From: Bacillota bacterium
Lineage (GTDB): Bacteria > Bacillota > Clostridia > Lachnospirales > Anaerotignaceae
Direction of reading: 5' to 3'
Assembly (NCBI GenBank): GCA_017534115.1
Contig: JAFWDD010000036.1
Location: 1 to 32,785 of the forward strand
Length of the DNA: 32,785 bases
In this document: piece after piece, positions 4,785 to 20,504 of the stretch
Layout: each line of letters starts with the position of its first letter
Position numbering within the stretch: the stretch's first letter is position 1
Notes under the pieces: generated by a model
Databases searched by the model: none
Seen by the model: the letters and a program-made list of their open reading frames with translations, nothing else
What the model was told of the DNA's origin: nothing
Translations under genes and position numbers: made by a program

Positions 4785-6138
4785 GACGGTGTTTCTCCTT
4801 TAAACGGGCTTCGTAAAAATTCACTGCAAACTCCGGATTTGCCCGGAAATGAAAATGGGGATATCCGGCGTAAATATGCTCCGACGCATAAACGCAGTCC
4901 CATGACTTTCCGGTAATTTTCTCAGCACGGAAATCCTCTCCCGAAAATTCAGAATCCCAATAGTGAAATTCATGGGCAGGAATCTTCTCGCCGGCTTTGC
5001 ACAGCATATTGTCCTCTTTTGCCTTAAGCGTCACATATCCGAATCTGGTAAGCTTTTTGTTGTCGAAGCACTTTCCCTTTAAAAATCCGGCCATGGGATA
5101 TTCCCCGATATATTCAGTCAGATACATAAAGCCTCCGCACTCCGCGATACATGGCATTCCCCTTTGAAGAGCTTTTTTTACAGAAGTCCGCATTTCCGAA
5201 TTACAGCTCAGTTCATCTGCATAAAGCTCCGGATATCCGCCGCCTAAATATATTCCATGTATATTCTCTGGGAGTGATTTGTCCTTAAGAGGACTGAATT
5301 CCACGATTTGGGCTCCCATATCCTCAAGGAGCTTCAGACTGTCCTTATAATAAAAGCAGAATGCATTGTCCTTCGCAACGGCAATTCGGATTTTATCTTC
5401 ATATTTTTGGATTTGAATTTCTTTGAATACGACCTCGGGAGCTTTGTCCGCGATTTCCAAAATCCCGTCTATTTCTATGGTTTTCTCTGCCTGTGACGAA
5501 AGCATCTCCAGCTTTGTCTTCAAATCTTTTATTTCATCCGCTGTTACAAGCCCGAGATGCCGGCTTTCAATGGAACACCCTGCCATAGCAGGAAGAAATC
5601 CCAGAGGTTTTACCCGGTTTTCAAAATGCTTTTCAATCTGCGGTTTCAGCATTTCATAGGTTCCGGCTGTGCATCTGTTCAGTATGACGCCGCAAATTCC
5701 GTTATCGGGAAAAAACGTCAGAAAACCATGTATAACCGCCAGAATGGAAGCGGACGCGCCTTTCGCGTCTATAACCAGCAAAACAGGACTCTGGGTAATC
5801 CTGGAAATCTCACAGGTGCTTGCCTTGCCGGATGTCATGGCCATACCGTCATAAAATCCCATTACGCCTTCAATAATGCTGACATCACAATCTTTGGCGT
5901 TTTCGGCCAGCAGATATTTCAATGTGTTTTCATCAAAAAAGAAGGAGTCAAGGTTTGCGGATTCAGCACCTATGATCCGGCTGTGGAACATAGGGTCTAT
6001 GTAGTCGGGACCGCATTTGAACGCACAGGGATTAAGTCCTCTGTTTACCAGAGCCTGCAAAACAGCGCAGGTCACCGTGGTTTTCCCGCAGCCGCTGCCT
6101 GTTCCCGCTATAACGATTCGTGGGATTTTTGCTTTCAT
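4777..6138 (-). CDS. cbiA: Cobyrinate a,c-diamide synthase CbiA
   Basis: ATP- and glutamine-dependent amidation of the a and c carboxylates of cobyrinate. The first half is a dethiobiotin-synthetase-like P-loop domain: VIAGTGSGCGKTTVTCAV at residues 8-25, then AFKCGPDYIDPMFHSRI and EGVMGFYDG. The second half is a class I glutamine amidotransferase domain with LGGGYPELYADEL and the nucleophile cysteine in CIAECGGFMYL (about residue 330), ending with HFHFRANPEFA. The 453-residue length is normal. The start overlaps the ATPase gene upstream by four bases (ATGA), which ties the corrin synthesis genes to the importer genes. Confidence 0.95.
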   Translation of the reverse strand: MKAKIPRIVIAGTGSGCGKTTVTCAVLQALVNRGLNPCAFKCGPDYIDPMFHSRIIGAESANLDSFFFDENTLKYLLAENAKDCDVSIIEGVMGFYDGMAMTSGKASTCEISRITQSPVLLVIDAKGASASILAVIHGFLTFFPDNGICGVILNRCTAGTYEMLKPQIEKHFENRVKPLGFLPAMAGCSIESRHLGLVTADEIKDLKTKLEMLSSQAEKTIEIDGILEIADKAPEVVFKEIQIQKYEDKIRIAVAKDNAFCFYYKDSLKLLEDMGAQIVEFSPLKDKSLPENIHGIYLGGGYPELYADELSCNSEMRTSVKKALQRGMPCIAECGGFMYLTEYIGEYPMAGFLKGKCFDNKKLTRFGYVTLKAKEDNMLCKAGEKIPAHEFHYWDSEFSGEDFRAEKITGKSWDCVYASEHIYAGYPHFHFRANPEFAVNFYEARLKEKHRHD

Positions 6139-7253
6139 AGACTGTTCTCCTTTTCTCTCCTGCTGATCGGAATATTGTTTTGCTCCGCCAGCTCCAGAAG
6201 CTTTCTGTTGTAGTGATTAAATGTTCCGCCGCTTCCTCCCGCGTCTATGACCACACGGCATTTGAGAAGCTGGTCCGAAGCCGTGTTAAAAAGCTCTTCC
6301 GTTACAGGCTCAAAGGCAGGAGCGGATATGACATGATCCGAAAGCTTTGACGCCACCTGAAAATCAATATCATTCTCAAATATAATTCCTGCCGCAAAAG
6401 GAATCTGCTCTTTCTGAAGGGCTCTGTAATATGGGATTCCTCTCCCCGCTCCGCCTACAACGAAGACTTTAGGCTCTCCTTCGGGCTTCGCCAGCTCCAC
6501 GCTTCCGAAATTCAGATTATAGGAGCCTTTTTCCATATTATAAAGGTTTTCGATGGTATTTTCCCTCAAAATCTCTTCCGGAGTGCCGAAAGCCTGTATT
6601 GTGTCGCCTTTCACACACAAAAGATAGTCCGAGATTTTTGCCGCCAGGTCAATTTCATGCAAAGACATGATAACCGTTACATTCTTTGCTCTCGCCATTT
6701 CGGAAAGAGTGTCCAGAAGCTCAATTTTGTGCTTCACATCCAGATAGGCGGTAGGCTCGTCCAGAATGATCACTTCCGGCTCCTGGCATATGGCGCGCGC
6801 AAGCAGTATCCTCTGCTTCTGCCCGTCAGATAATGTGTTGAAATCCTGATTCGCGTGAGATGTCATGCCTACGCTTTCAAGGGAAGAAACTACAATTTCC
6901 TTATCCTCGTCCGTCAGTCTGCCAACCACATTCGTATATGGATACCGTCCCATAGATACCACATCAAAGCAGGTCATCATATCTGTGCGTATCCTGTCCG
7001 TAAGCATTACGGAAACTGTTTTTGCCATTGTTTTCAGATCCCAGCGGGAAATGTCTCTGCCGTCTATGCATACCCTGCCGCCGATCAAGGGAATCTGTCT
7101 GGATATGGACTTTAATATTGTGGATTTTCCGGAACCGTTCGGGCCGATAAGGGTAAGGATCTTTCCTTTTTCAAGAGATATGTTTATATCCCTGATAAGG
7201 ACTTTTTTGTTATAGCCTACGGACAAATTTTCCGTTTTAAAATAAGCGTTCAT
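6135..7253 (-). CDS. ABC transporter ATPase of FecE/BtuD type with a C-terminal extension
   Basis: ATP-hydrolysing subunit of the importer, acting at the inner face of the membrane with the permease upstream. Walker A is GPNGSGKST (residues 37-45), the signature is LSDGQKQRILLARAI, Walker B is VIILDEPTAYLD, and the switch histidine lies in VIMSLHEIDLA. After the usual end of such ATPases (near residue 250) there is an extra region of about 115 residues starting around PKVFVVGGAGRGIPYY. Its alternating strand/helix look resembles a Rossmann-like unit with glycine-rich turns, including VVIDAGGSGGTFNHY. I chose the ATG at 7253 because AGGGGGA lies six bases before it; a TTG at 7259 overlaps the permease stop. 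The substrate is not shown by sequence; the B12 riboswitch points to a corrinoid, other tetrapyrrole or metal chelate. Confidence 0.9.
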   Translation of the reverse strand: MNAYFKTENLSVGYNKKVLIRDINISLEKGKILTLIGPNGSGKSTILKSISRQIPLIGGRVCIDGRDISRWDLKTMAKTVSVMLTDRIRTDMMTCFDVVSMGRYPYTNVVGRLTDEDKEIVVSSLESVGMTSHANQDFNTLSDGQKQRILLARAICQEPEVIILDEPTAYLDVKHKIELLDTLSEMARAKNVTVIMSLHEIDLAAKISDYLLCVKGDTIQAFGTPEEILRENTIENLYNMEKGSYNLNFGSVELAKPEGEPKVFVVGGAGRGIPYYRALQKEQIPFAAGIIFENDIDFQVASKLSDHVISAPAFEPVTEELFNTASDQLLKCRVVIDAGGSGGTFNHYNRKLLELAEQNNIPISRREKENSL

Positions 7254-7255
7254 AT

Positions 7256-8368
7256 TCAATCCCCCTGCATTCTGCGGCGTTTGACCATAATATAAATAAC
7301 AATGGGAGCTCCGAATACTGCCGTTACCGTACTAATGGCCATTTCCGTAGGAGCGAAGACCGTTCTCGCCAGAAGGTCGCAAAAAACACAGAATACGGCG
7401 CCAGATATAAAGCTTGCCGGAATTACATGGACCGGCTTGGAGCTTTTAAGCATTGTTCTGGTTATATGGGGAACGGCTATTCCAACAAAGGAAACAGGTC
7501 CGGCGATGGCCGTAACACAAGCGGAAAGTATGCTGGAAAGCAGAATCAGCACAATGCTGAAGGGTTTAATATTGATACCCATGCTTTTCGCGTATCCTTC
7601 ACCGAGGGAATATGCTTCCATAGGCTTGGCGAGAGGCCAGCAGATAAAAATCACCGGAATACAGATCGCGAAGCTGAGAACTACACTGCCCCAGTCCGCG
7701 CCTGAAAATGTTCCCATTGACCATCCCGTCAGATTCAGAATATCGTGGTCATTGGCAAAGGTTATGCAGAAATCCGTAACGGCGCTGCATATGTAACCAA
7801 CCATAATTCCTATTACCAGAAGCATGGACATGTTTTTTACACGTCCCGCGAAAACCACTACAATGGACGTAATAATCAGAGAACCTATGAAAGCCGCAAT
7901 GACCAGCATTCCCGGATTCAGGTATCCTATATACCCCGACAGAAATATCAGGGTTATTCCCACGAGCATTTTCGCTCCGGATGAAATTCCCAGAACAAAA
8001 GGTCCCGCAATAGGATTGCGGAAAAAGGTCTGGAGCAGAAAACCCGATACCGAAAGGGAACCGCCTAAAATCGCGGCTAAGAGCATTCTGGGCATACGGA
8101 TACTGAAAATAATCTGGCTTTCCGTAGACGCGCTGACTACCGCCGAAAACTCACCCGCGTATTTTCCGCCGGAAAAGATATTCATTAATCCATATAAAAC
8201 TGATTTCCCGATCATGGAAAATATTTCCCGCGCGCTTATATGGACAGAGCCTATATTTATGTTCAGGACAAGCCCAAAAAGCAAAAGCGCCACAAGAATC
8301 ACCATTACCGCCGCGAAACGGACCGGTCTTTCTTTTATATAAGGTTTTGCGGTTTCGTTATTAAGCAT
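7256..8368 (-). CDS. FecCD/BtuC-family ABC transporter permease
   Basis: Integral membrane permease of a type II importer (iron-chelate, heme or cobalamin class). The 370 residues carry about ten hydrophobic segments, and family motifs include RMPRMLLAAILGGSLSVSG, LQTFFRNPIAGPFVLGISSGA, GWSMGTFSGADWG and GPVSFVGIAVPHITRTM. The last of these is the ATPase coupling helix region with GLxxPH-like character. An N-terminal tail of about 15 charged residues precedes the first membrane segment. It sits directly between the binding-protein gene and the ATPase gene and overlaps the ATPase start region. The sequence alone does not decide between corrinoid and iron-chelate transport. Confidence 0.93.
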   Translation of the reverse strand: MLNNETAKPYIKERPVRFAAVMVILVALLLFGLVLNINIGSVHISAREIFSMIGKSVLYGLMNIFSGGKYAGEFSAVVSASTESQIIFSIRMPRMLLAAILGGSLSVSGFLLQTFFRNPIAGPFVLGISSGAKMLVGITLIFLSGYIGYLNPGMLVIAAFIGSLIITSIVVVFAGRVKNMSMLLVIGIMVGYICSAVTDFCITFANDHDILNLTGWSMGTFSGADWGSVVLSFAICIPVIFICWPLAKPMEAYSLGEGYAKSMGINIKPFSIVLILLSSILSACVTAIAGPVSFVGIAVPHITRTMLKSSKPVHVIPASFISGAVFCVFCDLLARTVFAPTEMAISTVTAVFGAPIVIYIMVKRRRMQGD

Positions 8369-8383
8369 TACAAAACATTTCCT

Positions 8384-9523
8384 TTACTTCAATTTATGCA
8401 AATATTCCACGCCTTCGGGCTCCGCGCCGTCATTTGTAAATATTTTGTTGAAATCACTTATCATCTGGCCCAGCTGCATGGTCTCCTGGAACATATTTTT
8501 GCTTGTGCACCAGACATTTCCTTTTTCGACTGCCTTGAAATTCTTCAGCAGATCGTTCAGAGCCAGAAACTCTTCCATTGTGTTTATCTCACCGCCGATT
8601 GTACTGTTGTATATTACAAAATCGGCATCTTTAGCGGTTTCGTAAAATGTTTCCATTTCCACATTGACTGTGGATGTATCCTTTTCCGGGTCGCCAAGAT
8701 TGTCAAACACATATTTGCCGCCCGCAAGCTCTATCATTTTGCTTACATAATCACCGGACTTTCTGGCTACAACATAGCCCGATGAATTTATATAGAAAAA
8801 CGCAACAGTTTTTCCTGTGTCTACGTTTTCCGGAAGCGCCTCAAGATATGAAACCTGCTCCGAAAACAGCTCATCAGCTTTTTCCTCTTCATTTAAGAGC
8901 GCTGAATACAATTTGATCCATTCGCCTCGCGCCAGAGGATGCTTTTCCCTGCTGGACTGGTCCGTTAAAACAGGCACTCCCAGCTTTTCCAGCTTTTCCT
9001 TGACTTCGGACGCGTGACCTATCATTGTGGATTCTATTGCCAGCGGACAATTATTTTCAAGAATCAGTTCATAATCCGGTTCGCTGTATTTGCCCGCATA
9101 TATAATCTCTCCGTTTTCCATGGCTTTTCTCGCGTTTTCTATGTACCAGCCCTCAGCCTTTGTGCCGGAAAGCTTTATGGCGTCAAGCCTGTCCATTGCG
9201 TCAAAAAGACACATGGCGGATGTCGCAGCCAGGTATATGTTCTCCACAGGCTGATATATAGGCGTAATATCGCCGGAAATGCCTTTGGGAACATCCTTAC
9301 CTTCCGGAACTACCAGAAAACGGCTGCCGTCCCCAAGAGTGATGAGCTTATATCCGTCTTCATAATAATCAACGCCGAATTCCTCTGCGTATTTGAGCTC
9401 CATTGTGCCGGCAGGTTCCCAGCCGTTTCCAAGACCGGAAACTTCGCTTTTTTCCGCAGCGCATCCGCACATCACAGAAACAGCCAGGAAAAATGTTAAT
9501 AAAACAGACGCTGTTCGTTTCAT
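8384..9523 (-). CDS. Substrate-binding lipoprotein of the importer (FecB/BtuF-like)
   Basis: Extracytoplasmic binding protein expected to deliver ligand to the permease encoded next. The signal peptide ends at VMCGC, with the lipidated cysteine at residue 21. The mature part has the periplasmic-binding-protein-2 pattern: IYLAATSAMCLFDAMDRLDAI, then YELILENNCPLAIEST, then LAGGKYVFDNLGDP, with a long helix between the two lobes. I use the ATG at 9523, because AAAGGGAG lies seven bases before it. The ATG at 9529, six bases earlier, overlaps the previous stop as ATGA but sits almost on top of the ribosome site. The ligand cannot be assigned from sequence; the operon's B12 control favours a corrinoid or tetrapyrrole, while ferric chelates remain possible. 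Confidence 0.88.
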   Translation of the reverse strand: MKRTASVLLTFFLAVSVMCGCAAEKSEVSGLGNGWEPAGTMELKYAEEFGVDYYEDGYKLITLGDGSRFLVVPEGKDVPKGISGDITPIYQPVENIYLAATSAMCLFDAMDRLDAIKLSGTKAEGWYIENARKAMENGEIIYAGKYSEPDYELILENNCPLAIESTMIGHASEVKEKLEKLGVPVLTDQSSREKHPLARGEWIKLYSALLNEEEKADELFSEQVSYLEALPENVDTGKTVAFFYINSSGYVVARKSGDYVSKMIELAGGKYVFDNLGDPEKDTSTVNVEMETFYETAKDADFVIYNSTIGGEINTMEEFLALNDLLKNFKAVEKGNVWCTSKNMFQETMQLGQMISDFNKIFTNDGAEPEGVEYLHKLK

Positions 9524-9525
9524 AT

Positions 9526-9924
9526 TCATTCTCCCTTTAATGTCCCGCTGTCAAAAAACAGTGTGTAATCAATGAGATGAGGCTGGCTCATAGCAACAGT
9601 GCACGCGGATACTTCCATCTTTTCATCTAATACGACAGGAATTTCAAAGGTTGAGTTGCCTTCCGTATTTATGGGTTCATACCGCACATCATCTACTATC
9701 ATGTACTCGTAATAAGGACTGCTCCATACAATGGTTCCCACAGCCTCTCCGCCGGAGATTTCAACCGCCGCATCCTCGATGGAACTTCTGCCGGAGCCTC
9801 CCTCAAGGGTTACATCCACTGAATATGTTCCGTCGGGAATTTCTTTGGGTTTGCAGGCGGAAAAGCTTATACATAAAATTATAACAGATAATATACAAAT
9901 AGTCTTATTTTTAATATTCTTCAT
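9526..9924 (-). CDS. Small lipoprotein, paralogous to the C-terminal half of the preceding lipoprotein
   Basis: 132-residue protein with a signal peptide ending in FSAC (cysteine 24). The mature part is one small, probably all-beta domain. It begins DGTYSVDVTLEGGSGRSS, continues through VEISGGEAVGTIVWSSPYYEYMIVDD and FEIPVVLDEKMEVSA, and ends TVAMSQPHLIDYTLFF. This order of motifs (DGxYxVxV, V-x-GG-x-AxxxxxSxxYxYM, F-x-IPxxLDE, closing tYtLxF) is shared with the neighbouring gene at 9929-10510, so the two are probably diverged duplicates. The fold resembles NEAT-type tetrapyrrole-binding domains in size and layout, but I cannot establish homology by eye. GGAG lies seven bases before the ATG, inside the end of the upstream gene. 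It may hand a ligand to the binding protein encoded next. Confidence 0.8.
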   Translation of the reverse strand: MKNIKNKTICILSVIILCISFSACKPKEIPDGTYSVDVTLEGGSGRSSIEDAAVEISGGEAVGTIVWSSPYYEYMIVDDVRYEPINTEGNSTFEIPVVLDEKMEVSACTVAMSQPHLIDYTLFFDSGTLKGE

Positions 9925-10592: not shown

Positions 10593-11534
10593 TTATTTTG
10601 CGATTGCGTCAGCGCAGTGGCCCACGATCATCTGCTGAACGCCTTCATACTGGCCGAGGCCTTTAAGCACGCACTCAACCTCAAAACCTTCAGCCTCAAA
10701 CTGGCTCTTCCATGAATCGTCATCATCGCCTGCCATATCATTGTTAGCGTGGTCTCCCGCAACGATCATAAGGGGCATAAGTACAACTTTTTTAGCGCCG
10801 TATTCTTTAGCCATACCAATAACATCTTCTAAATCGGGCTCTGCTTCAACTGTTCCGATGAAAATATTATCGTATCCGGCTTCTGTTATTTTTTCCTGAA
10901 GTTTAGCGTATGTAGCGTTTGCTTCATGCTCTGTTCCGTGACCCATGAATACAATGGCTGTGCCTTCTTCATTATAGGAAGCTGTTTCATCCGCAAGAAC
11001 TTTTACCAAAGCGTCATAATCGCTGTCGGATGCAAGAAGGGTATCACTGAAATTCAATGTATCGAATTTATCGCTGTACTTATTAACTTCAGCAACAATG
11101 TCATCATACTCAAAACCATTCATAACATGAGTGGGCTGAATAATAACATCTTTGACTCCGTCTGCAACAAGACGGTCCATAGCTTCCGTTACGTTATCAA
11201 TTTCAATATTGTCTCTGTCTTTTAATTTATCAATGATGATCTGGCTTGTGAAGGCTCTGCGCACTTCATAATCAGGGTTTGCGTCCTGAAGGGCTTTCTC
11301 AACAGCGCCGATTGTTAATTCACGGCTGTCATTATAGCTTGTACCGAAGGAAACCGCTAAAATAACGGGTTTCTGTTCTGTTACATCCTCAGAAGCTTCC
11401 TCCTGAACAGCTTCAGCCGTCTCTTTTACCGCTTCCTGAACGGCTTCTTCCTCTTTTCCGCATCCCGCAGCTGAAAACATCATGCCTGCGGCAAGAATCA
11501 TGGGAATTACTTTTTTAATTAAATTTTTCTTCAT
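10593..11534 (-). CDS. cbiK: Exported lipoprotein sirohydrochlorin cobaltochelatase CbiK
   Basis: Family reaction: insertion of Co(II) into sirohydrochlorin at the entry of the anaerobic B12 pathway. The mature part matches CbiK: PVILAVSFGTSYNDSRELTI, VRRAFTSQIIIDKL, VIIQPTHVMNGFEYD, IVFMGHGTEHEANATYAKL, GTVEAEPDLEDVI, and MPLMIVAGDHANNDMAGDD. The two histidines in MGHGTEHE and GDHANND and the glutamate of EAEPDLED correspond to the metal-site region. Unusually for a B12 synthesis enzyme it has a signal peptide ending AAGC (cysteine 25) and an acidic linker, so it should sit outside the membrane. Periplasmic CbiK forms are known in Desulfovibrio. The start is the ATG at 11534, GGAGG eight bases upstream. 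It is the first gene after the riboswitch. Confidence 0.92.
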   Translation of the reverse strand: MKKNLIKKVIPMILAAGMMFSAAGCGKEEEAVQEAVKETAEAVQEEASEDVTEQKPVILAVSFGTSYNDSRELTIGAVEKALQDANPDYEVRRAFTSQIIIDKLKDRDNIEIDNVTEAMDRLVADGVKDVIIQPTHVMNGFEYDDIVAEVNKYSDKFDTLNFSDTLLASDSDYDALVKVLADETASYNEEGTAIVFMGHGTEHEANATYAKLQEKITEAGYDNIFIGTVEAEPDLEDVIGMAKEYGAKKVVLMPLMIVAGDHANNDMAGDDDDSWKSQFEAEGFEVECVLKGLGQYEGVQQMIVGHCADAIAK

Positions 11535-11586
11535 TTTCTGTACCTCCATTAATAATTACAATCTTAATTACAATTCTTCATCAATC

Positions 11587-12934: not shown

Positions 12935-12997
12935 TATGCCGCAAAGACAGAATACCAGGAATTGCAATAAAATCATACAAATTCGGAGGTGTTTTAC

Positions 12998-14005
12998 ATG
13001 ATAAGGAAAATACTGCCTGTCATACTATGCATGTTCATAACGATTTCCGCATCGGCATGCGAAGCATCAGGCGAAACCTCTTCCGGCATACGGGAAAGCA
13101 GGATCCAGTTCATAGAAACTGAAGCAGGCAGACTGTATAAAATCGCAAGAAAACAGCAGGAAGATAAAGGTACAGGTATATTTGATTTCGAAAAAAAGAC
13201 CGTCCTGTTAAACAGCGGGTATAAGATGCCCATAATCGGGCTCGGCACATGGACTCTTTCCGATGATGAAGCCGAAAACTCCGTATACCATGCTTTAAAA
13301 TCCGGAATGCGTCTTATTGATACGGCAAGGTATTACGGCAATGAAAAAGGAGTCGGCCGCGGACTCAGAAAAGCTGTCGATGAAGGCATAGTGACCCGGG
13401 AGGAAGTATTTATTACTTCAAAAATAATGCCTTCGGATTACGACAGAGCGGCAAAAGGCATAGAAGATTCACTTTCCGACCTGGACGTTGATTATATAGA
13501 CCTTATGCTGATACATCAGCCGGGATGGAATGATGAAGCAGTATATAAAGCCATGGAAGATGCTGTGCGTAACGGAAAGATAAAGTCCATAGGCATATCC
13601 AATTACTATACAAGGAAGGCTGTGGACGAAGTTCTTTCCTATGCAGAGATACCGCCTTCAGTCATCCAGAATGAAAATCATCTGTATTATCAGAATACGG
13701 ACCTTCGGGATTATGTGAAGCAGTATGGAATTGTAATCGAATCGTGGTATCCTTTCGGAGGCAGAGGACATACATCAGAGAACTTTAATAATGATGTTAT
13801 AGTGGAATTGGCAGAAAAATACAACAAATCCTCAGCGCAGATCATACTGAGATGGCAGCTGCAGGCAGGGTTTATCGCCATTCCGGGCTCTTCCAATCCG
13901 GAGCATATCGCAGAAAATTATGATATATTCGATTTTGAACTTACAAATGAAGAAATCCAGCGCATAGGATGGCTCAACAAACACAAAAGATATGAAAACT
14001 GGTAA
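12998..14005 (+). CDS. Aldo/keto reductase with N-terminal lipoprotein signal
   Basis: 335-residue protein. The N-terminus MIRKILPVILCMFITISASA looks like a signal peptide, followed by Cys21, a probable lipidation site (ASAC, not the strongest lipobox). A linker of about 45 residues leads to a complete AKR domain starting near VLLNSGYKMPIIGLGTW. The catalytic tetrad is visible: Asp and Tyr in DTARYYGNE, Lys in ITSKIM, His in LIHQP. The cofactor-side motifs SIGISNYY and QIILRWQLQAGFIAIPGSSNP are also there. AKRs are normally cytoplasmic and NADPH-dependent, so an exported copy is odd: the cofactor source outside the membrane is unclear. The start is set by GGAGG eight bases upstream of the ATG; a GTG nine bases earlier is less likely. 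Confidence 0.85.
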   Translation: MIRKILPVILCMFITISASACEASGETSSGIRESRIQFIETEAGRLYKIARKQQEDKGTGIFDFEKKTVLLNSGYKMPIIGLGTWTLSDDEAENSVYHALKSGMRLIDTARYYGNEKGVGRGLRKAVDEGIVTREEVFITSKIMPSDYDRAAKGIEDSLSDLDVDYIDLMLIHQPGWNDEAVYKAMEDAVRNGKIKSIGISNYYTRKAVDEVLSYAEIPPSVIQNENHLYYQNTDLRDYVKQYGIVIESWYPFGGRGHTSENFNNDVIVELAEKYNKSSAQIILRWQLQAGFIAIPGSSNPEHIAENYDIFDFELTNEEIQRIGWLNKHKRYENW

Positions 14006-14076
14006 TATGTGCAGACTAATATACATATTGCCGAAAAAACATCAGAATAAAAAAACAACAGAAAGGATTGAAAAAA

Positions 14077-15270
14077 ATGAAACAAAGAAAAATTTTTACC
14101 AGCATGATCCTGTCAGCAGCGATTATGTTCAGCACGGCCGTATCGGGTTTTGCCGCATCATCCGGCGGATATGACGACGTAAAAGAAACGGACTGGTATT
14201 GCAGCGCAGTTGCGGACATGAAAGAAAAAGGACTTATGTACGGCGTATCCGATACCGAATTCTCACCGGACGGAGACCTGACCCGCGCGATGCTCGTTAC
14301 AATAATCTACAGAATGGCCGGAGAGCCTGCTGTGTCCGGAGATGATGATTTTGAGGACACAAAATCCGGATCATGGTATTCCAACGCTGTTCTCTGGGCT
14401 TCCCAGAAAGAAGTTGTTGCAGGTTACGGCAACGGAAATTTCGGCACCAACGACCCTGTGACACAGGAACAGCTTATTGCTATTTTATGGCGTTATGCGG
14501 GAGAACCGGCTTCCGAAACAACCGAAACAGGTTCAGCTTCCTCATGGGCAATAAAAGCAGTTTCATGGGCAAAGACAAATGAACTTATTGATGAAAATTC
14601 TTATGAATTCGCACCAAAGGAAAATGCATCCCGTGCGCAGATCGCATCTATCCTCAGCAAATATTTAGCAGAGCCTGCCAAAACAGATACTCCCGAAGTG
14701 CAGAATCCCGAAACAGATTCTCCCGAAAAAGGATCCAAAGCTCTGGTAGCTTACTTTGCTGTTGCGGAAAACAGCGATGTTGATGCGGTTTCTTCCGCAA
14801 GCAGGCTTACGGATGGCGGAGAAACAAAGGGTATGGACAGATTCATCGGAGAAATCATCGCGGAAAAAACAAAGGGTGATCTGTTCTCTATTCAGACAGA
14901 AGAAAAGTTCTCAGGAGAATACAACACTCTTCTGGACAACGCACAGGAAATGAAAAACAACGGCGAGATGCCCGCATTGTCATCACACATCGAAAATCTT
15001 GATGATTATGATGTGATTTTTGTGGGATACCCTATCTGGTGGGGAGCTTTGCCCCAGGTTATGGAAAGCTTTTTCAGCGAATATGATTTTTCGGGAAAAA
15101 CCATCGTACCCTTCTGCACCCACGGAGGCAGCGGCAACAGCGGAACTTTCAGCAAAATCGCCGAACTCGAGCCCAATGCAGACGTAAAAGACGGCATTGC
15201 CATCAACATGGATAATGTTTCCGGCTCGAAGCAAAATATTCTTGACTGGCTGGATAAGTTAGGCTTTTAA
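14077..15270 (+). CDS. Exported SLH-domain protein with C-terminal flavodoxin domain
   Basis: 397-residue cell-surface protein. A Sec signal peptide ends near SGFAAS (about residue 28). Three SLH repeats follow: DVKETDWYCSAVADMKEKGL, FEDTKSGSWYSNAVLWASQK and SASSWAIKAVSWAKTNEL (about residues 30-200), each closing with an ALLxxxYRxAGEP-like segment. These bind secondary wall polymers. After a short Thr/Glu/Pro linker a flavodoxin domain begins at KALVAYFAVAEN (about residue 222). It has VIFVGYPIWWGALPQ and FSGKTIVPFCTHGGSGNSG, the FMN-contact loops. The ATG at 14077 has AAGGA eight bases upstream; a TTG nine bases earlier is an alternative. A flavodoxin anchored to the wall would be an extracytoplasmic FMN protein, possibly partnered with the other exported redox proteins nearby. 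Confidence 0.9.
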   Translation: MKQRKIFTSMILSAAIMFSTAVSGFAASSGGYDDVKETDWYCSAVADMKEKGLMYGVSDTEFSPDGDLTRAMLVTIIYRMAGEPAVSGDDDFEDTKSGSWYSNAVLWASQKEVVAGYGNGNFGTNDPVTQEQLIAILWRYAGEPASETTETGSASSWAIKAVSWAKTNELIDENSYEFAPKENASRAQIASILSKYLAEPAKTDTPEVQNPETDSPEKGSKALVAYFAVAENSDVDAVSSASRLTDGGETKGMDRFIGEIIAEKTKGDLFSIQTEEKFSGEYNTLLDNAQEMKNNGEMPALSSHIENLDDYDVIFVGYPIWWGALPQVMESFFSEYDFSGKTIVPFCTHGGSGNSGTFSKIAELEPNADVKDGIAINMDNVSGSKQNILDWLDKLGF

Positions 15271-19077: not shown

Positions 19078-19815
19078 CTACACAATCACATTCAGCGCCA
19101 GACCGATTATAACTGCAATAATAATGAAAATCAGAGGAGCCTTCTTATCTTCCTCTTTCCCGGAAGGCATCCTGCATATGGAGACTGCCTGAGCGCCTAT
19201 AAACGTCCAGAATATCAGCGTCAGGATGTTTTCCAGAAATACTGCGCCTCCCGGTTTTCCATAATCAAAAAATGCAAATGGAACACGGAAAAACAGATAG
19301 GCCGGCATACCGTTTCGCAAAAACAGAAATAATCCAATTCCTGCGATACAGCCGAATACAGCCGAAAGCAGCCTCTTCTTTTTGCCGTCAAGTCTCAAGC
19401 CTGCCGTTATCATGGGAATATGCAGGCCAATATGCGCGCCCATAAGAACAAACGCCCAGTGGGACATGGAAAGGTGCATTCTTCTTGCAAATGAAACCTT
19501 TGCCATACCGTACAAAAAAGGCACAGCGTGTCCGCTCATGGACATCCCGCAAAACGCCGTCAGCCCAAAGGACAATATAAGAGATATGTTGACTGCTGTT
19601 GCCAGGACCCTGTACGGATTATATCTGCCTTTAAAAACAGCGCTGTACCATCTGCGGTTCAGAATCTGGTGGATAACCACAAGAACCGTCATACATATGC
19701 CTATCCACTCATGGGCCGCCTCGCCTGTGACCTGATACGCCATGAGACACAGCAAAAGGACGGTCATGCAGATATCAACGCTCCTTTTTGTTCTGTTATT
19801 CTGTTTTCTCCGCAT
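19078..19815 (-). CDS. DUF4405-type membrane protein, possible b-type cytochrome
   Basis: 245 residues with about six membrane segments. The N-terminal half has the DUF4405 pattern: VTGEAAHEWIGICMTVLVVIHQILNRRWY, with two histidines one helix-length apart. RMHLSMSHWAFVLMGAHIGLHI follows, giving further histidines in the membrane, as expected for di-heme ligation. Heme binding is inference from the family pattern and histidine spacing. It would link membrane electron carriers to the outside. GGAGG lies eight bases before the ATG. It is the last gene of the TetR-headed unit, 20 bases after the lipoprotein flavodoxin, which would be a natural outer-face partner. Confidence 0.8.
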   Translation of the reverse strand: MRRKQNNRTKRSVDICMTVLLLCLMAYQVTGEAAHEWIGICMTVLVVIHQILNRRWYSAVFKGRYNPYRVLATAVNISLILSFGLTAFCGMSMSGHAVPFLYGMAKVSFARRMHLSMSHWAFVLMGAHIGLHIPMITAGLRLDGKKKRLLSAVFGCIAGIGLFLFLRNGMPAYLFFRVPFAFFDYGKPGGAVFLENILTLIFWTFIGAQAVSICRMPSGKEEDKKAPLIFIIIAVIIGLALNVIV

Positions 19816-19835: not shown

Positions 19836-20504
19836 TTACTGCAGTTCGTTTATCCATGCCTCAAGCTCCTCCTGGGATGCTCCTGCGCCGAATCTCTGGC
19901 CGTTCAGCCAGTTTCCGCTTCCTGCGTTATCCGCAAGATTTTTTCCGCTTCTGCCGATTCCGCTGCTGCTTGAGGTGCAGAAAGGAATCACGGTAATACC
20001 GTCAAAACTTTGGCTTTCCACAAATGTATCCATTATTCTGGGTTCTTCTCCCCACCAGATGGGATAGCCAATATAAATAACGGAATACCCGGCAAGGGAT
20101 ATATCTTCGCTTCCGATTTTCGGCCGCACCGATGGATCATTCTGCTCAAGAGTAGTACGGCTTTGCGGGTCATTATAGTTCAGGTCGTCGGTAGTATATT
20201 CCTGCTCCGCCTTTATCTCATAAACATCTGCGTCTGTAATCGCCGCTATCTTTTCTGCAACCCCTCTTGTTGTTCCCGTTGCGGAAAAATATATTACCAG
20301 AACGTCATTATCTGCCTGGGAAGGCTCGGTTTCAGCTTCGGCAGGCGCGTTTTCCGCTGTCTTTTCATTTTCATTCTGCGCTTTTGCATCATTTGCTTCC
20401 GCAGATACGCTTTTCTCCGCGGTATCTGAGCTTTTTGCGCTTCCACAGGCTGTCAGCCCCATAACCAGAAGCACAGATATCAGTAAAGGTATTATTTTTT
20501 TCAT
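19836..20504 (-). CDS. Lipoprotein flavodoxin
   Basis: 222 residues. The signal peptide ends LTAC with the lipid cysteine at residue 20. An Ala/Glu/Lys-rich linker (about 21-66) leads to a flavodoxin domain starting VLVIYFSATGTTRGVAEKIA, a standard FMN phosphate loop. VIYIGYPIWWGEEPRIMDTF and VIPFCTSSSSGIG are the other flavin loops. NWLNGQRFGAGASQEELEAWI at the C-terminus matches cytoplasmic relatives, so the domain is complete. AAGGAGAGA precedes the ATG. Flavodoxins are normally cytoplasmic; membrane anchoring outside the cell suggests a role in surface electron transfer. It sits between an AKR gene and the DUF4405 membrane gene. Confidence 0.9.
   Translation of the reverse strand: MKKIIPLLISVLLVMGLTACGSAKSSDTAEKSVSAEANDAKAQNENEKTAENAPAEAETEPSQADNDVLVIYFSATGTTRGVAEKIAAITDADVYEIKAEQEYTTDDLNYNDPQSRTTLEQNDPSVRPKIGSEDISLAGYSVIYIGYPIWWGEEPRIMDTFVESQSFDGITVIPFCTSSSSGIGRSGKNLADNAGSGNWLNGQRFGAGASQEELEAWINELQ

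Follow-up and report, generated by a model that had tools for sequence, protein, structure and literature searches.

In 2024, Huang and colleagues reported that in extracytosolic Flavodoxin_4 proteins a motif-bearing insert separates strand 1 from helix 1, and for two Flavodoxin_4 proteins they demonstrated by experiment that FMN is covalently attached there (PMC11334425). They argued that loosely held FMN would be lost outside the cell. Members of this family cluster with apbE and with DUF4405 cytochromes; DUF4405 binds heme b, occurs with flavinylated Flavodoxin_4, and is likely its electron donor (PMC11334425). ApbE puts FMN on the last residue of the motif D-x-x-[S/T]-G-A-[S/T]; one substrate loses half of its flavinylation when the motif Gly is changed to Ala, and Thr is a better acceptor than Ser (PMC12052999). 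Cell-wall redox chemistry with SLH anchoring has been proposed for multi-flavinylated clusters with SLH proteins, where SLH is found in large unannotated proteins of multi-FMN_bind clusters rather than fused to a flavodoxin as in the protein described here (PMC8238504). The main text of PMC11334425 makes no mention of SLH, S-layers, or aldo/keto reductases, and our literature search returned nothing relevant on SLH with flavodoxin, SLH with flavinylation, or a flavodoxin-AKR-lipoprotein cluster.

The window, meaning the whole stretch of 32,785 nucleotides that we analyzed, encodes what we take to be a wall-anchored member of these recently described exported flavodoxins, probably with a covalent flavin. 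Its 397-aa open reading frame opens with ATG at 14077, with a ribosome-binding-like site, GAAAGGA, at 14061-14067, and is organized as follows:

14077-15270, + strand: protein of 397 aa with signal peptide, three SLH repeats and Flavodoxin_4 (open reading frame, translation, Pfam)
14077-14154, + strand: predicted Sec signal peptide, aa 1-26, hydrophobic, ending VSGFA before AS (read from the sequence)
14170-14664, + strand: three SLH repeats, about aa 32-75, 92-133 and 153-196 (PF00395; outer edges approximate)
14725-15267, + strand: Flavodoxin_4 domain, aa 217-397 (PF12682, AlphaFold2, Foldseek)
14758-14844, + strand: inserted loop that separates strand 1 from helix 1 and replaces the canonical phosphate loop (alignments; low pLDDT)
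14782-14802, + strand: ApbE-type flavinylation motif, D236-A-V-S-S-A-S242 (alignment; motif of PMC12052999)
14824-14844, + strand: degraded phosphate loop TKGMDRF, xGNTxY in relatives (alignment)
15025-15045, + strand: second flavin loop (W-loop) GYPIWWG, aa 317-323, kept (conserved columns)
15112-15135, + strand: third flavin loop FCTHGGSG, aa 346-353, kept (alignments)

The original prediction had placed a signal peptide, three SLH repeats, and a flavodoxin at 14077-15270, and its coordinates were right. The Pfam SLH profile matches three stretches (100.2 bits, E 5.9e-29), this part resembles the Sap SLH structures 3PYW and 6BT4, and a linker joins it to the Flavodoxin_4 domain, which passes its profile PF12682 at 90.8 bits (E 8e-26) against a cut-off of 24; the NCBIfam model PRK06934 'flavodoxin' scores 167.7 bits, slightly below its cut-off of 172. 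Structure prediction, which had been proposed as a check, bears this out: the AlphaFold2 model of the domain has a flavodoxin fold (pLDDT 88.6), and its nearest PDB structures by Foldseek are 4ICI (E 9.8e-13, TM 0.75), 4J8P, and 3KLB (E 2.6e-11), the last with FMN bound. Given the signal peptide read from the sequence and the SLH repeats, the protein is presumably exported: Sec would carry it across the membrane and the three SLH repeats would bind secondary wall polysaccharide. A PF04230 pyruvyl transferase in the source genome (G000:C76, 165 bits) fits SLH anchoring and may be CsaB itself.

The flavin-binding loops tell us how FMN is likely to be held. The original prediction had all three intact; the W-loop and the third loop are indeed present, but the phosphate loop has given way to an insertion with a degraded G-N-T. 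Strand 1, KALVAYF, is followed by AVAENSDVDAVSSASRLTDGGETKGMDRF where SxTGNT is usual, and the PF12682 match starts only at profile position 11. A canonical GNT-like phosphate loop is absent, G-N-T being degraded to K-G-M-D with Asp where Thr is usual. The window protein has the same fold as 4ICI, 4J8P, and 3KLB, the last with non-covalent FMN, and two of its flavin loops match theirs; it lacks their phosphate loop, and these structures lack its insert. The inserted loop is poorly modelled, with pLDDT 57 at residues 21-30 of the domain model and below 50 at residues 23-25. Within it, D236AVSSAS242 fits DxxS/T-G-A-S/T everywhere but at the Gly position, which is Ser; the predicted FMN acceptor is Ser242 (codon 14800-14802). 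Because this ApbE-type motif loop replaces the phosphate loop, the protein probably carries its FMN covalently and does not hold it by three intact loops.

Conservation of the motif is consistent with this assignment. The motif Asp is present in 41 of 44 aligned domains, all 41 of which have Ser or Thr at the acceptor position, and the Gly position is Ser in 21 and Gly in 18 rows of the same alignment; in our first alignment, the Ala and Ser of the motif are invariant across 8 relatives. In the window's clade (L110, L111, L113, L114, L118, L126), G-N-T is gone and the acceptor Ser is retained in every member, as expected if a covalent bond took over phosphate binding. The motif also tracks with export: among 203 domains, an export signal is present in 51 of 59 with the motif versus 78 of 144 without it (Fisher p 1e-5). 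The 8 motif domains that lack such a signal look, for the most part, like cases of a mis-set start or a short signal. A quick tree places the window domain within a set of 43 rows (support 98), 33 of them with the motif.

Taken together, we consider it likely that the product of 14077-15270 is exported, anchored by SLH, and carries FMN covalently set on Ser242 by ApbE. ApbE would move FMN onto the inserted loop, and a flavin bound in this way could not be lost outside the cell, which would make the ordinary phosphate loop dispensable. The fold, the predicted export, and the placing of a motif insert after strand 1 and before helix 1 are those of the ApbE-flavinylated proteins of Anaerocolumna xylanovorans and Desulfosporosinus lacus (PMC11334425); unlike them, the window protein has a three-SLH anchor, a degraded canonical loop, and S for G in the motif, and apbE was not found in its assembly. 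Covalently flavinylated flavodoxins would thereby extend from lipoproteins to the cell wall. The best reading is still the earlier suggestion of FMN on the wall and apart from the NAD(P)H pool, although that suggestion missed the covalent-type motif loop.

Where the electrons would come from was raised by the original prediction, which called for an extracellular donor or an alternative role. The window itself offers a candidate donor, of a class already described (PMC11334425), in the first of two genes on the reverse strand:

19078-19815, - strand: DUF4405-like membrane cytochrome, candidate donor (weak PF14358, conserved His)
19836-20504, - strand: lipoprotein Flavodoxin_4 with canonical SATGTT loop (PF12682 163 bits; LTAC lipobox)

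PF14358 matches the cytochrome-like protein at E 0.002, with 19.0 and 21.8 bits falling below the cut-off of 26.7. Alignment with 32 relatives, of which the tested members L110, L111, L114, and L126 pass PF14358, shows His49, His114, and His128 in 33 of 33 rows and His35 in 32 of 33. The AlphaFold2 model is helical (pLDDT 89); a PDB fold search with it found no match at E 0.001 or better, and the weak matches include heme proteins, which we do not count as evidence. The lipoprotein flavodoxin lies 20 bp upstream on the same strand. Of 80 relative loci, 29 have a DUF4405-type gene no more than about 5 kb from the flavodoxin; in L111 and L179, a motif flavodoxin, an AKR, DUF4405, and ApbE are found all together. 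About 4 kb separates the cytochrome gene from the SLH-flavodoxin gene, which lies on the other strand, and so we infer a link in function rather than an operon. The electron-source puzzle thus gains a concrete candidate answer: electrons would exit the membrane via the DUF4405-like cytochrome and then, through the lipoprotein flavodoxin or directly, reach the wall-bound FMN, the direction of flow being presumably outward.

A DUF4405 cytochrome and a C-terminal Flavodoxin_4 also occur in one protein, at L161:3192-5447, L171:3252-5492, L187:3252-5444, and L135:23-2170. By Pfam, the L161 fusion has an FGE-sulfatase domain between DUF4405 and Flavodoxin_4, and L187 reads alike.

On the acceptor side, the wall-bound FMN would pass electrons to an extracytosolic acceptor, and the likeliest route runs through the adjacent exported aldo/keto reductase (AKR), a partner on which the original prediction is silent and which is unusual and the most interesting part of the locus:

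12989-14005, + strand: lipoprotein-like exported AKR (PF00248, E 1.1e-47; N-terminus MIRKILPVILCMFITISASAC)

This gene lies 71 bp upstream of the SLH-flavodoxin gene on the same strand, and a scan of that strand between the two genes gave no terminator-like site. In a residue table, the AKR retains the catalytic D-Y-K-H tetrad and the nicotinamide contacts; the NADPH 2'-phosphate contacts (Lys270/Arg276 type) are absent, with Gly and His in their place. We rejected this loss as a mark of exported AKRs, since cytosolic AKRs of the same group also show it, and it is not decisive for AKR membership.

Do the two proteins work together, or are they mere neighbours? Three relatives have an exported flavodoxin fused to an AKR of the same clade: L046 encodes SP-SLH-Flavodoxin_4-AKR, and L050 and L095 encode lipoprotein Flavodoxin_4-AKR proteins. 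The window AKR groups with these fused AKRs (support 100/98), its nearest relatives in the set, which argues against mere proximity. That the four exported AKRs form a strict clade of their own was rejected (p 0.004), because L046:7661-8506, a neighbouring AKR without an evident signal, nests inside. If the AKR has a separate role, the flavodoxin would directly reduce extracellular quinones, metals, or organic acceptors; the AKR's catalytic and nicotinamide-contact residues are all kept, suggesting nicotinamide rather than FMN as the hydride source, and an AKR gene close to a flavodoxin is a frequent arrangement overall (37 of 80 relative loci). We give this explanation not quite even chances. 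It concerns the acceptor only and is compatible with a covalently flavinylated wall protein.

The whole chain, from membrane cytochrome to wall FMN to AKR, is a tentative proposal that we consider less likely than not. Slightly less probable still is its most specific form, an extracellular carbonyl reductase without a soluble NAD(P)H pool, in which a cytochrome-fed, wall-anchored, covalently flavinylated flavodoxin re-reduces the exported AKR, the two being separate proteins here and one fused protein in relatives. If true, the AKR must either keep a nicotinamide trapped as its prosthetic group or receive hydride or electrons from the FMN; to our knowledge, neither has been described for AKRs. 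The exported AKR-flavodoxin fusions turn this into a testable question: how does an NAD(P)H-type enzyme work outside the cell?

We return to the covalent flavin, for which the distribution of the motif and of apbE has to be weighed. The search for SLH plus Flavodoxin_4 that had been proposed earlier found such fusions in at least 10 of 58 family genomes, the window's own included, with family examples at L041, L043, L045, L046, L049, L051, L066, L067, and L069, as well as in one Oscillibacter MAG (L126). Most of those seen have a canonical GNT-like loop and lack the motif; the two with it are the window protein and L041:8012-9619. A covalent flavin is thus not general to the SLH-flavodoxin architecture. 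Nor was apbE found in the source assembly (1.86 Mb, 95% complete, 91 contigs), either by profile or with a relative's protein as query. Yet ApbE is encoded in 54 of 58 genomes of the family, and the source genome encodes three proteins that would need ApbE: RnfG, which has a TGAT-type motif, and two other FMN_bind proteins, which have SGAT. An assembly gap is therefore the likeliest reason for its absence. The Rnf contig stops about 1 kb past rnfA, and the surroundings of apbE in ten relatives are too variable in gene order to explain the absence. In the same genome, a 1441-aa frame (L103, C58, near 49117) starts with an FMN_bind domain carrying DVVSGATKSS.

The missing apbE and the motif-less majority would both be accounted for if the wall-anchored flavodoxin held FMN non-covalently, with the DAVSSAS loop an unmodified family insertion; two of three flavin loops are retained, and other relatives have motif-less inserts at the same place (e.g., the EENS and EDNS rows). 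We regard this as improbable, because the phosphate-binding G-N-T is lost here, the clade conserves both the Asp of the motif and its acceptor Ser, and loosely held FMN would be lost outside the cell (PMC11334425). That the fold has lost its flavin and now acts as a domain for the surface or for ligand binding, as the degraded phosphate loop and the 35-44% identity to other domains of the first alignment might suggest, is very unlikely given the intact, conserved aromatic W-loop and third loop, the redox genes around, and the flavinylation motif retained by the clade.

With a covalently flavinylated wall protein as the preferred reading, we asked how its architecture is distributed. The combination of Flavodoxin_4 with SLH or AKR is recurrent and, as far as we have searched, not described in the literature; our class-wide fusion search scored four candidates per genome and so cannot show the absence of fusions outside the family. 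Several SLH-Flavodoxin_4 relatives have extra C-terminal domains: an AKR, a cyclophilin-like domain, or a second flavodoxin. The SLH label takes 10 changes on the quick tree, whose support is modest, and SLH anchors have therefore probably been exchanged repeatedly. These proteins have the appearance of a modular extracytosolic redox kit of Clostridia-like bacteria, with lipobox, SLH, and Cu_amine_oxidN1 as anchors and AKR, cupin, esterase, and cyclophilin-like proteins as partners.

Several individual loci deserve mention. L041:8012-9619 is an SLH3-Flavodoxin_4 (motif)-cyclophilin-like fusion and adjoins a second SLH-flavodoxin without the motif. L042:8798-10357, in the source genome (C58), encodes an exported protein in which two Flavodoxin_4 domains come after Cu_amine_oxidN1; its gene is clustered with those of exported esterase-like proteins. 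The proteins at L110:3852-4805 and L092:1996-3006 are double cupins that carry export signals, and exported flavodoxins are encoded close to them. Finally, the window encodes at 10593-11549 on the reverse strand a CbiK-type cobaltochelatase whose signal peptide (MFSAAGC) is lipoprotein-like, apparently an exported chelatase; its gene adjoins cbi genes and an uptake set of Peripla_BP_2/FecCD/ABC type (6135-9529).
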